Translations under genes and position numbers: made by a program
The notes under the pieces: generated by a model
Databases searched by the model: none
Told to the model about the DNA's origin: nothing
Seen by the model: the letters and a program-made list of their open reading frames with translations, nothing else
Assembly (NCBI GenBank): GCA_947630415.1
Contig: CANRHM010000003.1
Span: 1-32,905 of the forward strand
Length of the DNA stretch: 32,905 nt
Direction: 5' to 3'
Source: an uncultured Bacilli bacterium
GTDB lineage: Bacteria > Bacillota_I > Bacilli_A > RF39 > UBA660
In this document: positions 1 through 28,287 of the stretch, in pieces
Layout: each line of letters starts with the position of its first letter
Numbering within the stretch: the stretch's first letter is position 1

Positions 1-255
1 TCTTTCATCTCCTGCATATAGTATGACTTATTTCCTTAAATTTTATACAATGACTTTTTCAAGAATTATTTACAATTTTTTCATAAGCACTTTACAACTA
101 GAACCGAAGTAATCTGTTATTTATTTTCTCTATAACAAAAATTTATATTATCACTTTATCTAGTAAAGATTTTAAATTTATAAATATATTGACAAGCAAA
201 AGATTTTAATATTAATATTTAATTAGATGATACCAATTACTATGATGGAGGAAAT

Positions 256-1281
256 ATGAATAAGATTAAAATTAATATGCTATCGATGGCCGATCAAGTG
301 GGAGGTCAAGGTGTAGGAAGTGCTTATTTAGAACTTTTAAATTTACTTAAGAAAAAAGGAAAAAAAGATTTTGAAATTGTTGTTAACAAAGGAACGAAAT
401 ACGATATTCTCCATGCCCATACAGTGGAACCTAGAAATCTTTTTAAAATGCTTTTAACCAAAGGAAAAACCGTTTGCTATGTGCATTTTCTACCCAATAC
501 TTTGGATGGTTCTATTCATCTTCCAAAACCCATCTTTGCGATTTTTAAAAAGTATGTACTCTATTTTTATAAAAAAGCAGACTATTTAGTGGTCGTCAAT
601 CCTTCTTTTAAAAAAGAAATGATTTCACTTGGCTTAAAAGAAGAAAAAATATTCTACATCCCCAACTTTGTTTCAACTAAAAACTTTTATCCTAAAAAAC
701 AAGATAAAGAAAAATTAAGAAAGAAACTAAATTTACCAGAAAAAGCCTTTATTATCTTAGGAGCAGGACAAGTGCAAACTAGAAAAGGTGTCCTTGACTT
801 TATCGAAATTGCCAAGAAAAGAAAAGATGATCTCTTCCTCTGGGCAGGAGGCTTCTCTTTTGGTAACATCACCGATGGTTATGAAGAACTAAAAAAAGTC
901 ATGGAAAATCCACCAGAAAATGTACGTTTTCTAGGTATTATTCCACGAAATGAAATGAACGATTTATATAACGCTGTGGATCTTTTACTAGTTCCTTCCT
1001 ATAATGAACTTTTCCCTATGACCATTCTAGAAACGGCTAGTACCAATACGCCTTTTGTTTTAAGAGACTTAGAGTTATATGAAGAAATCTTATTTAACAA
1101 ATATCCAAAAGCTCATGATAATAAGGATTTTATCGAAGCCATAGACACTTTAAAAAAGAATCCTAAAGAATATCAAAAACAAGTGGAGTATACCAAAGAA
1201 ATAGCTTCCTACTATAGTGAAGACGCCATCTATAAAAAATGGAAGAAGTTTTATACGGATGTCGTAAATGATAAAAAATAA
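256..1281 (+). CDS. Glycosyltransferase, GT4-like (GT-B fold)
   Basis: 341 aa ORF with RBS GGAGG; motifs GAGQVQTRKGVLDFIEIAKKR, FLGIIPRNEMNDLYNAVDLLLVPSYNELFPMTILETAS typical of GT4 C-terminal domain. Possible promoter TTGACA-17-TTAATA near 190-217. Confidence 0.85.
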   Translation: MNKIKINMLSMADQVGGQGVGSAYLELLNLLKKKGKKDFEIVVNKGTKYDILHAHTVEPRNLFKMLLTKGKTVCYVHFLPNTLDGSIHLPKPIFAIFKKYVLYFYKKADYLVVVNPSFKKEMISLGLKEEKIFYIPNFVSTKNFYPKKQDKEKLRKKLNLPEKAFIILGAGQVQTRKGVLDFIEIAKKRKDDLFLWAGGFSFGNITDGYEELKKVMENPPENVRFLGIIPRNEMNDLYNAVDLLLVPSYNELFPMTILETASTNTPFVLRDLELYEEILFNKYPKAHDNKDFIEAIDTLKKNPKEYQKQVEYTKEIASYYSEDAIYKKWKKFYTDVVNDKK

Positions 1282-11816: not shown

Positions 11817-11862
11817 TTGCTATTTTAATCAACATTCGTTATACTTCTAATAGGTGATGCAA

Positions 11863-12309
11863 ATGAAAAAAATAATCACATTCCTACTTATAATCTTACT
11901 CTTAACAGGTTGTCAAAATAAAGATCAAGTTCGCTGGGAAAAAGAGATAAAAAATCTACAAGAAACCGCTATCCAAGATAGTTCTAAAAAAATTTATCAA
12001 GAAGACATAACCGAAGCGATTACTTATTTAAAACAACATATTCTTAATCCCATAAACAATAGAGAGGTAGCCAAAAAGATCATTTATTATAGTACTTATT
12101 TAACAGAACTAGGTAATAAAAAAGAAGAAAACAAAGATCACATCATAACAAAAGTAAGTAGTCAAATACAAGACTATATCACATCTCTTTACAAAGAAAA
12201 AACAACCAACAAGAATGCCTTAATTCTATCAAAGGGAAATGTACTAGTTAGTGAATTACTCCAAATAAAAGAGGAAGACATCTCTTCCTTCATAACAGAA
12301 AACGGATAA
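11863..12309 (+). CDS. Putative lipoprotein
   Basis: MKKIITFLLIILLLTGCQNKD: signal peptide with lipobox LTGC; RBS AGGTGATGCAA before ATG 11863. Confidence 0.75.
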   Translation: MKKIITFLLIILLLTGCQNKDQVRWEKEIKNLQETAIQDSSKKIYQEDITEAITYLKQHILNPINNREVAKKIIYYSTYLTELGNKKEENKDHIITKVSSQIQDYITSLYKEKTTNKNALILSKGNVLVSELLQIKEEDISSFITENG

Positions 12310-12329
12310 TACAAAACATTATCCGTTTT
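12299..12329. terminator. Bidirectional terminator hairpin between convergent genes
   Basis: AAAACGGATAAT-acaaaac-ATTATCCGTTTT, 12 bp perfect stem. Confidence 0.85.
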
Positions 12330-12348: not shown

Positions 12349-14118
12349 CTATATTTCTGCATTGACTAGTACAAGGCGGAACGAGTAGGTGGCGTACGCA
12401 GAGCCAAAGGTGTAGTAGTAGTAGAACACTCCAGCACTCGAGCTATGGAGATAGTAGCCGCCGCGGATGAACCACGGGGTCGTAGAGCTTACAAAACTAT
12501 AGGTATTACTATACCATCCTTTGGTTTCTGATAAAGCATGTCCATAACATTCACCATTCTGTGTACATGAGGTAGCAAAGTTAGTTGTATATAAATCATA
12601 ATACTTGGCATCTGGTATTAGATTAGTTTCTCCACTTGTCTTAAATCCGGAACTTTTTATTGTTGGTTTACCTGTAGCATCATCTTTTAGTGCACCCATT
12701 ACATATTCAAGTGCCCCACCACTCATATCATATACTCCTGTGATGTTTCCAGTCGTAGATGCTTTTTGTCCTGCTTCAGTATTATATGTATTTGCACAAC
12801 CAGAATCTTCACTTGCATTTGCTGTTGCTCCTGCTATTCCTGTTGTATAACTTGAACAGTTATTGATATATACTTCTTCCCCGTCATTTCCATATTTTCC
12901 ATACTCACTTTGTGATAGGTAGGCTACTGCTCCCCACTCACTATTCTTACTCATATGGGTATCGATACTTCCATCACTACTAAATCCATATTCAGTAGTA
13001 TTCTTGGCCATATTTTGTGATATTGTGAATGCTGTTGAAACTCGGATTCCTCTCCATGAGGTTACACTTGGCTTTATTTGTGGCGTTAATGTGGTTAAAT
13101 CACATCTGGTATTAACATCACCACTAGTTGATGGTGTACAGTTCTGTTCTTTATTACTAGTTTCAAATTTTCCATACCAGAATCCTTCTAATTGTTCTCC
13201 TCCAAAATCAAAGGCTGGATGTACTATATAATTGTCTTCATCTGCTAAAGTTAGATCTTTACTTATAAATTTTATTTTTATTTCTCCTGGATTTAAATAT
13301 TTTGGAGAAGAGGAACTTCCACTATTTGTTCCTCCTGCTGTTTTTATATCTACATAATCATATTCGTATCTCGGTATCCATACCCACATCGTATTGATAT
13401 CTTCTATATCTATTTTTTCTCCTACTTCTGCTTCTACATAATCACTTCTTTGTTGTGTTCCTGTTTCTTTTACTGTTACTGCATTTGCCCATTCTTGATT
13501 ACAATAATTATACCAACTCTTATCATTATTTGTACTATCTGCTTTGACCCATGAACTTTTGCCTTGATCCCATTTTACTGGAATCATTCCCTCTACTAAT
13601 TTTGGCACATTTGGTTGAGGCATATCTTCACATGATAATGCTTCATAAGTTCCTGTTATTTTTGTTTCACCTTCATTTAAAGCTAATTCTTTATTACTTA
13701 ATCCACATCTTCCATTTAAAGTTACGGTTTCAGAACTTGTTCCATTATTCTTTAATTTTAAAGTATAAGTTAACGTTGTTCCTGTGGCTAAATTTTGTAA
13801 TTCTATTTCACTTTCATTGCTACTTGCCGATAATACTTCGATGTTATTACTTCCACTATAGGTGATTATAGAATGAATATCTACTAAACTTTGATTCGTA
13901 AAAGTGACAGTTATCTCTTTTTCTTCTCCTCCTTGTAAAGTTACTTGATTGTTTTCTAAGTCGTTACTTTGAATGGGGCAAGAGACATCGCCTACGATAA
14001 TATTAAGTGCTCCTTTCTTTTCTGTACTTGTGGTAAATAATGCATAACTAAAACCGATGATCCCTGTAATCATTAATAACATTACAAAACTAAGCATCAT
14101 CTTAGTTCTATCTTTCAT
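12349..14118 (-). CDS. Surface protein with N-terminal membrane anchor/signal, beta-sandwich-like region and C-terminal FGE-sulfatase/C-type-lectin-like domain; candidate DGR variable protein
   Basis: 589 aa; MKDRTKMMLSFVMLLMITGIIGFSYALFTTSTEKKGALNIIVGD start; GVYDMSGGALEYVMG; C-terminus WFIRGGYYLHSSSAGVFYYYYTFGSAYATYSFRLVLVN matches the RGG...AG.F...G.A....FR.VL layout of DGR targets. Confidence 0.85.
   Translation of the reverse strand: MKDRTKMMLSFVMLLMITGIIGFSYALFTTSTEKKGALNIIVGDVSCPIQSNDLENNQVTLQGGEEKEITVTFTNQSLVDIHSIITYSGSNNIEVLSASSNESEIELQNLATGTTLTYTLKLKNNGTSSETVTLNGRCGLSNKELALNEGETKITGTYEALSCEDMPQPNVPKLVEGMIPVKWDQGKSSWVKADSTNNDKSWYNYCNQEWANAVTVKETGTQQRSDYVEAEVGEKIDIEDINTMWVWIPRYEYDYVDIKTAGGTNSGSSSSPKYLNPGEIKIKFISKDLTLADEDNYIVHPAFDFGGEQLEGFWYGKFETSNKEQNCTPSTSGDVNTRCDLTTLTPQIKPSVTSWRGIRVSTAFTISQNMAKNTTEYGFSSDGSIDTHMSKNSEWGAVAYLSQSEYGKYGNDGEEVYINNCSSYTTGIAGATANASEDSGCANTYNTEAGQKASTTGNITGVYDMSGGALEYVMGALKDDATGKPTIKSSGFKTSGETNLIPDAKYYDLYTTNFATSCTQNGECYGHALSETKGWYSNTYSFVSSTTPWFIRGGYYLHSSSAGVFYYYYTFGSAYATYSFRLVLVNAEI
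12361..12480 (-). other. Candidate DGR variable region (VR)
   Basis: GC-rich 3' end of the surface gene; 16 of 16 putative variable codons (TAC TAT CTC CAT AGC TAC TAC TAC TAC ACC TTT TCT TAC GCC ACC TAC) end in a pyrimidine, as expected from AAY template codons after A-directed mutagenesis. Confidence 0.7.
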
Positions 14119-26176: not shown

Positions 26177-27187
26177 TTAACTCTCTTTTTTTTGTACTTT
26201 TTTACTAATATCTTTTAATGTTTCTAAATACGCTTTTTCCACAGGACTAATTTCTTTTACTTGATACTTTTTATATTCACTTTTTGCTTTTTGTATTGCT
26301 TCTTCATGGCTTATAGCACCAGCGCCTATTAATTTACTTTCCCCTGTTGCAGATAAAATAGAATCTAGTTCTCTTATATAATCTTCCATATACATTTGTT
26401 TATGCCTAATTGCTTGAATTTCAGCAAAATCAAAATATCCTGATACCAAATTATTTAAAACTTTTAATTCTTCTTCTGTTAAATAATTTTTAGCAATAAC
26501 TACATCACTCATAACAGGAATATCCCCTCTGAAGGTTTTAAGTCCCATAAACGGTTTTTCGGAATCTGCTCTTTCATAAATTAATTCGGAGGCAGTATGA
26601 CCATGAGTAGCAAAATGAAGTTTATTTTGGACCATTTTAAAAAACTCAATCGACTTTTCATCTTTAGGATCATAATCAACTGCTGTTGCATATAAATCTA
26701 AAACTTGTCGATAAAGAACTTTTTCAGAAGATCGGATATCCTTTATTCTAGCAAGTAATTCTTTCCAATAATTGCCACCAGCATTGCCTTTAAGACGTTC
26801 ATCATCTAATGTGAATCCTTTTATCATATATTCTTTTAATCTTTCAGTAGCCCACTTTCTAAAATTAGTAGCTATTTTAGATTTAATACGATATCCTAAA
26901 GAAATGATCATATCTAAATTATAATATTTGACCTTTCTTTCTACATTTCTACTTCCTTCGCTTTGAACTGTCAAGAATTCCTTGACAGTTGAATTTTCAT
27001 CTAATTCTTGCTCATTAAATATATTTTTTATATGTAAACTTATATTTTGTTTGGTTGTTTTATATAATTCAGCCATTTGCTGTTGAGATAACCAAACAGT
27101 TTCATTCTCTAGTTTTACATCGATTTTAGTCTCTCCATCCTCTGATTGATAAATAATAATATTGTTAGAAATTTCATTATTATACAT
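26177..27187 (-). CDS. RhuM family protein
   Basis: 336 aa; WLSQQQMAELYKTTKQNISLHIKNIF, YYNLDMIISLGYRIKSKIATNFRKWATERLKEYMIKGF. Confidence 0.87.
   Translation of the reverse strand: MYNNEISNNIIIYQSEDGETKIDVKLENETVWLSQQQMAELYKTTKQNISLHIKNIFNEQELDENSTVKEFLTVQSEGSRNVERKVKYYNLDMIISLGYRIKSKIATNFRKWATERLKEYMIKGFTLDDERLKGNAGGNYWKELLARIKDIRSSEKVLYRQVLDLYATAVDYDPKDEKSIEFFKMVQNKLHFATHGHTASELIYERADSEKPFMGLKTFRGDIPVMSDVVIAKNYLTEEELKVLNNLVSGYFDFAEIQAIRHKQMYMEDYIRELDSILSATGESKLIGAGAISHEEAIQKAKSEYKKYQVKEISPVEKAYLETLKDISKKVQKKES
26966..26990. repeat. Intragenic inverted repeat in RhuM gene 1
   Basis: AACTGTCAAG-AATTC-CTTGACAGTT: 10 bp perfect arms, 5 nt spacer. Confidence 0.97.
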
Positions 27188-27262
27188 ATATACATCTCCT
27201 TAAATTGAACAAAATAATTTATTAAAATAATCATACAAAATAAATGTTTTTTCCTTTACATA

Positions 27263-28287
27263 CTATTTGTTTTCTATTTGCTTTGTTTCACTTAATAATC
27301 TATCAAAATCGGATACATAGTTTCTATCTTGTATAACTTTATATTTTTCATATTCAATTTCTGCTTTTTCTACTGCTTGTTTATGAGAAACTGTTCCTTT
27401 TCCTTCTAATACATCATAATGAAAAACTTTTATTGCATTTTCAACTTCTTTTTTCCAATCATCCATATACATTGCAATATTTCTTTCGGCATTATTTTCG
27501 GCTATATCTAAAAATAAATTTACTAAATTATTCAAATTTTTAATTTCTTTTTCATCTAAATAATTTTTGGCAATAGTAATATCTGATTAAGTATCTTCCC
27601 ATCAGGTGATTTATCCCAATTGGTAAGACCCATATTTTCTTTTGTAGAATCAACTCTATTATAAACTATTTCCGCAGCTGTATATCCAGTTATAGCGTAA
27701 TGAAATTTATTTTGAATCGTTTTATAAAATTCCATTGCTATTTCACTATTTTTATCATAATCTATTGAACATTCTGCAAAAATATCTGTAACTTTTTGAT
27801 AAAACATTCTTTCACTTGTACGAATTAATTTAATTCTTTCAAGTAATTTTTGAAAATATTCTTGATCTTTTTTATTGGCTTTCATGAACCTTTCGTCATT
27901 TAAAGCAAATCACTGAACCATATAATCCTTAATAATTTTATTTGCCCAAGTTCTAAATTTAATTGCTTTTTTAGAATTAACTCTAAATCCTATGGAAATA
28001 ATCATATCAAGATTATAATACGGATAAACTCTTTTAACTTTACGAGTTCCTTCATTTTGAACTTGTGCAATTTTTGCACAAGTTGAATTTTCATTTAATT
28101 CTTCATCTTTATAAATATTATTAATATGTCTAATAATACCGCTTCTATCGATGCTAAATAAATTTGCTAAAGCTTCCGTATTTAACCAAACATCTTCATT
28201 TTGAAGTAATACCTCTACTTTAGTATTTCCTTCCTCATCAATATAAAATAAAATATTTCTTTCATTTCCAATTAATTTATCTTTCAC
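27263..28287 (-). pseudogene. Decayed RhuM family paralogue (nonsense plus frameshift)
   Basis: Three consecutive ORF fragments (28287-27910, 27885-27556, 27535-27263) collinear with intact RhuM; in-frame TGA at YMVQ*FALNDERF versus YMIKGFTLDDERL, and frame loss near 27590 restored as SDITIAKNYLDEKEIKNLNNL. Confidence 0.88.
28060..28084. repeat. Intragenic inverted repeat in RhuM pseudogene, same codon position
   Basis: AACTTGTGCA-ATTTT-TGCACAAGTT: 10 bp perfect arms (11 with inner A-T), 25 bp footprint identical to RhuM gene 1. Confidence 0.97.

Follow-up and report, generated by a model that had tools for sequence, protein, structure and literature searches.

A surface-protein gene of an uncultured Bacilli bacterium as a very probable remote target of a trans-acting, multi-target DGR

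Described DGRs and the present locus

DGRs are usually pictured as a single cassette that serves one target or a few. The DGR of the phage BPP-1 (PMC3240598, PMC12875486) acts on one target in cis, where an 8-bp hairpin following the variable region (VR) strongly promotes homing, with residual activity when the hairpin is absent (PMC3240598). Remote targets have been described from bacteria. Treponema denticola has seven of them together with an HRDC accessory (PMC4891356), Trichodesmium erythraeum has two DGRs and 18 TR/VR-homologous loci (PMC8867640), and remote targets of the C-type-lectin-like (CLec) class are reported from cyanobacteria (PMC7517822). Thiohalocapsa PB-PSB1 contains nine DGRs with 15 targets and 21 VRs (PMC10907252). 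In one survey the VR copies of some template repeats (TRs) numbered a dozen or even in the hundreds, a single gene containing, for instance, 21 merged VRs (PMC6642488); surveys of metagenome contigs look beside the reverse transcriptase (RT) and miss remote targets (Roux et al., PMC8144416).

The window analysed here is a whole stretch of 32.9 kb, contig C3 of a gut bacterium's assembly (G000) of 140 contigs and 1.28 Mb that is 90.9% complete with 0.59% contamination. It contains a gene whose 3' end is almost certainly a VR, belonging to a remote target of a multi-target DGR that acts in trans. As in T. denticola, one TR and RT go with scattered surface targets whose C-terminal VRs differ mainly at template adenines; unlike T. 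denticola, with its seven targets and HRDC, this genome has 28 complete targets in 1.28 Mb, and an Avd together with a MutS_I gene. Dispersed paralogues diversified in trans, of the CLec class there and probably here, are a feature in common with Trichodesmium and other cyanobacteria, whereas the two DGRs and mostly cytosolic targets found there contrast with one detected cassette and probably anchored, surface-type targets here. Trans action is deduced as it was for Thiohalocapsa PB-PSB1, from VRs that match a remote TR at non-adenine sites, but that organism has nine DGRs and conflict-system targets. The TR, Avd, RT, adenine mutagenesis and 3' position of the VR recall BPP-1, although the targets here are remote and bacterial rather than a single phage gene in cis. 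DGRs with remote targets are thus already known, and what stands out is that a genome of 1.28 Mb combines a single detected cassette with 28 separate target genes. A target number of this scale was not found in the literature compared, and any priority is provisional.

The target gene and its template

The target gene is an ORF on the minus strand (12349-14118) encoding a 589-amino-acid surface-type protein with the C-terminal peptide WFIRGGYYLHSSSAGVFYYYYTFGSAYATYSFRLVLVN, and together with its homologues it makes up the 28 complete paralogous gene ends of the same genome. The VR is a 121-nt region on the same strand (12368-12488) at the 3' end of the coding sequence, its own end lying ~20 nt upstream of the stop codon. 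A preliminary description of the window had drawn attention to a GC-rich gene end, and this is borne out by a GC content of 54% at 12361-12480 against 33.6% in the remaining target gene. The maximum for 120-nt segments of the whole 32.9 kb falls at 12369 (57% GC), and the value of 12361-12480 is matched by no 120-nt segment elsewhere. The same description had counted NNY codons at all 16 residues between the conserved anchors. The predominance of NNY holds, but on recounting it is 17 of 19, the exceptions being two TCG codons that also read TCG in the TR. Elsewhere in the window (26177-28287), neighbouring ORFs are similar to one another (26177-27187 and the pieces 27556-27885 and 27910-28287), as though the two pieces were a second, split copy of the gene.

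The protein begins with a hydrophobic segment (residues 1-31, minus strand 14026-14118; MKDRTKMMLSFVMLLMITGIIGFSYAL), likely to be a membrane anchor or signal. An Ig-like domain of ASH type follows (residues 32-92, minus strand 13843-14025; Pfam PF15780, 29.5 bits against a cut-off of 27). The C-terminal domain (residues ~168-589, minus strand 12352-13617), the end of which is formed by the VR, is probably FGE-type CLec-like. It matches PF03781 weakly, and a family profile of the C-terminal ~420 residues gives a weak match (E 0.002 and 0.009) to PDB 5VF4, the DGR variable protein TaqVP of Thermus aquaticus, which has an FGE-type CLec fold (PMC6328139). The FGE-sulfatase match reaches E<=0.01 in 7 of 51 family members, with the window protein below the curated cut-off. 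AlphaFold2 modelling of the 589-residue protein with an alignment of 11 sequences gives a mean pLDDT of 49.8, so the fold assignment rests on the weak profile matches, and an FGE-type CLec fold of the variable domain is likely. The likeness to TaqVP is one of variable domains; TaqVP has a single domain, whereas here the CLec-like domain comes after a likely anchor and an Ig-like domain. Related target proteins at L088:2777-4732 and L099:3062-4714 have a type IV pilin-like N-terminus (GFTLIELLAVI), which suggests that in these relatives pilin-like stalks carry the same lectin-like tip.

ORF inspection and searches found neither RT nor template in the window, as had been stated, and the cassette had been proposed to act in trans from a TR with AAC and AAT codons. 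Such a TR lies in the same assembly, on the 3139-bp contig C130. Searching the genome with the VR DNA gives 26 matches, and BLASTN aligns the VR at 80% identity to C130:181-301, which encodes NPWFIRGGNYNNSSNAGVFNFNNNNGNANSNNSFRLVLAP and from which the VR differs mostly at adenines; besides this TR, the G000 assembly contains no other full-length TR-like match. C130 starts with the final ~50 nt of a target gene, ending ...GAGSYGSFRLVLAPIGA at the stop codon, and continues with a GC-rich hairpin, the TR, a MutS-domain-I ORF, Avd and RT. The MutS-domain ORF (156 amino acids; MutS_I 33.7 bits, cut-off 20.6) is MSL-like, and MSL (Pfam PF01624) has been reported among the accessory proteins of DGRs (PMC10053308). 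Avd exceeds the cut-offs of both NF033474 (80.3 bits, cut-off 80) and PF22296 (72.9 bits). The RT (C130:1333-2394, 353 amino acids; phrog_1423 E 2e-105; PF00078 64.9 bits, above cut-off) has an open frame with the catalytic motif YMDD and the motif IPIGNYTSQ, which conforms to the [IVL]GxxxSQ type of DGR RTs. It is one of two strong RT matches in the genome; the other (L014, C62:786-1406; PF00078 E 2e-48) is tied to no TR. The absence of RT and template from the whole genome, which would have counted against a DGR, is thus not what is seen. The RT type, the TR, the adenine-specific VR (see below), the accessory proteins Avd and MutS_I and the 3' position together identify the gene as a DGR target. 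A point against is that C130 forms a 3.1-kb contig of its own in an assembly broken into 140 contigs, so that its physical linkage to the chromosome is presumed.

Adenine specificity and alternative explanations

The alignment of the window VR with the C130 TR covers 38 codons; 18 of the 32 TR adenines are changed in the VR, compared with 6 of the 82 remaining bases (Fisher 6.3e-8). Three of these six non-adenine differences lie in the final three codons, where the homology ends on its 3' side, which leaves just three elsewhere. In the window VR each of the 14 AAY codons of the template reads NNY and retains the third base of the TR. Pooling 20 VRs gives NNY at 266 of 280 AAY positions, compared with ~50% pyrimidine at upstream third positions of the same genes.

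Paralogues within the one genome were compared in place of strain alleles. Those on contigs C70 and C109 share 95.5% identity in an upstream stretch of 177 nt, but in the VR they disagree at 22 of 32 TR adenines and only 2 of 82 other sites (Fisher 8e-14). The corresponding upstream differences are 4 of 62 A-containing sites and 4 of 115 others; in the upstream parts of close pairs generally, A-containing sites are somewhat more changed, though far less than in the VRs. Five further close pairs show the same concentration at adenines (Fisher 9e-10 to 4e-12), and aligning the window gene with its relative on C19 gives VR differences at 21 of 32 adenines and 8 of 82 others (5e-9). In these comparisons near-identical paralogues vary chiefly at the adenines of the template.

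A protein search of G000 gave 33 places, 28 of them being 3' ends of genes that include both a stop codon and a VR. The window gene had been called an orphan, a label that no longer applies to one of 28 complete paralogous targets with TR and RT in the same assembly. Testing each VR for adenine bias against the C130 TR gives significance after Bonferroni correction for 22 of the 28, with the window VR showing the fewest non-adenine differences of all. Close to thirty sister genes appear to be targets of the same C130 element. Viral contigs contain merely two relatives of the target protein.

Five of the 28 VRs, on C5, C51, C73, C108 and C110, lack significant adenine bias even before correction and belong to older paralogues. 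These would fit a DGR that formerly diversified the family, the members of which now drift or recombine as ordinary paralogues. The same may be said of G002, a sister species among the five genomes of the genus that were searched. It has 43 target matches, ~42 of them with VRs, and an intact TR (L183:8500-9200, G002:C2) that lies after a target gene and has a 3' flank almost identical to that of the G000 TR. Directly after this TR and the conserved flank come other genes, and neither RT nor Avd was found in the 93% complete assembly. The G002 VRs are less close to their own TR (at best 12 of 81 non-adenine differences), as expected if the machinery has been lost, or the RT and Avd may instead be missing from the assembly. 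For G000 such a relic is nevertheless unlikely. Its RT frame is open with the catalytic motif present, and several VRs keep nearly all non-adenine bases of the TR while differing from one another at about two thirds of its adenines, in genes that are ~91-96% identical upstream. The sister species G001 has two cassettes with the gene order MSL-Avd-RT, as on C130. On another of its contigs (L244:2500-2900, G001:C15), where there is no RT match, a TR-like copy is found beside a target gene.

A lesser chance still attaches to C130 being a binning contaminant from a related species, with the true cassette unassembled. C130 is short and the TR flanks of the sister species are very similar. In addition, the VRs of C37, C68, C129, C100, C34 and C105 have non-adenine differences in common (for instance, GCG-NCG at template codons 20-21), and these suggest that another template exists or once existed that is missing from the assembly. 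However, the bin has a contamination of 0.59%, C130 itself bears a VR end of the same family, and the window VR departs from its TR at so few non-adenine bases. A mechanism free of reverse transcription, be it gene conversion between paralogues or ordinary diversifying selection, would suit a large paralogous family whose VR ends have short identical tracts in common, but is extremely improbable as it predicts neither changes at the adenines of one non-coding copy beside RT and Avd nor the third bases kept in 14 of 14 template codons.

Homing, templates in the family and significance

By analogy with DGR biochemistry, an RT-Avd complex of the trans-acting DGR would reverse-transcribe the TR RNA, inserting random bases opposite its adenines, and the mutagenized cDNA would then replace the VR by retrohoming. 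The product would be a membrane-anchored protein with a re-randomized lectin-like tip. The 14 AAY codons, together with ATC, two AGC and TAT, would allow ~10^18-10^19 variants per VR. Such proteins would most likely act as a diversified set of adhesins or receptors that bind surface ligands of hosts, microbes or phages.

Folding and an inverted-repeat scan found no short GC-rich hairpin of the BPP-1 type right after the window VR. The same methods place a terminator-like hairpin at 12300-12326, ~40 nt 3' of the VR and between the target gene and a convergent ORF (11854-12309). Hairpins of 4-5 bp lie immediately 3' of the VR in ~7 of the 28 paralogues, for example GTGCTCGTCAGCAC. Homing at the window VR might, on this prediction, be less efficient.

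Across a family-wide sample the target domain occurs in 61 of 145 genomes and a related RT in 29 of 145. G008, from another genus of the same family, has ~30 target genes and one RT-Avd locus with no adjacent TR. It also has ~15 dispersed TR-like elements (L281-L295) of ~130 nt each, 14 of which can be aligned across leader, core and tail. Each consists of a promoter-like box resembling TATAAT, an invariant leader AATAGACGA..ACGGTGAT, a TR-like core, a tail GATTACAAGTAAAA..TTTGTAAAGTCTATT and a terminator hairpin. Three helices proposed for them show 99.3% pairing, compared with 36-48% in slid controls, and in four pairs both partners have changed. Rfam gave no family for the C130 TR or for three of these solo elements. 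When the G008 VRs were matched to the 15 elements, no pair differed cleanly at adenines alone (lowest Fisher values 5e-4 to 6e-4, uncorrected for many comparisons), so that 'solo template RNA genes' is a hypothesis for what they are. Two of the elements, L282 and L286 (G008 C12 and C21), differ, with the C21 copy as reference, at 9 of 31 adenines but 4 of 90 other bases, a pattern that would be expected had a non-coding copy undergone adenine mutagenesis.

It is possible, and suggested here only tentatively, that this family of gut Bacilli with small genomes possesses a split, genome-wide DGR, a single RT-Avd locus reaching dozens of dispersed genes for surface receptors in trans, with the templates also separate in some lineages. 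Should the G008 elements supply the one RT there with templates, particular templates could be directed to particular receptor genes in a manner reminiscent of an immune repertoire, an arrangement of which no description was found in the literature searched.

Comparable or larger target families occur in the relatives, with 42-43 members in G002 and ~30 in G008. These genomes offer natural material for asking how an RT acting in trans chooses among many VRs and why VR ages differ, as well as how a large receptor repertoire behaves in the host gut. With one cassette, a single small genome could keep re-diversifying its whole surface-receptor repertoire.
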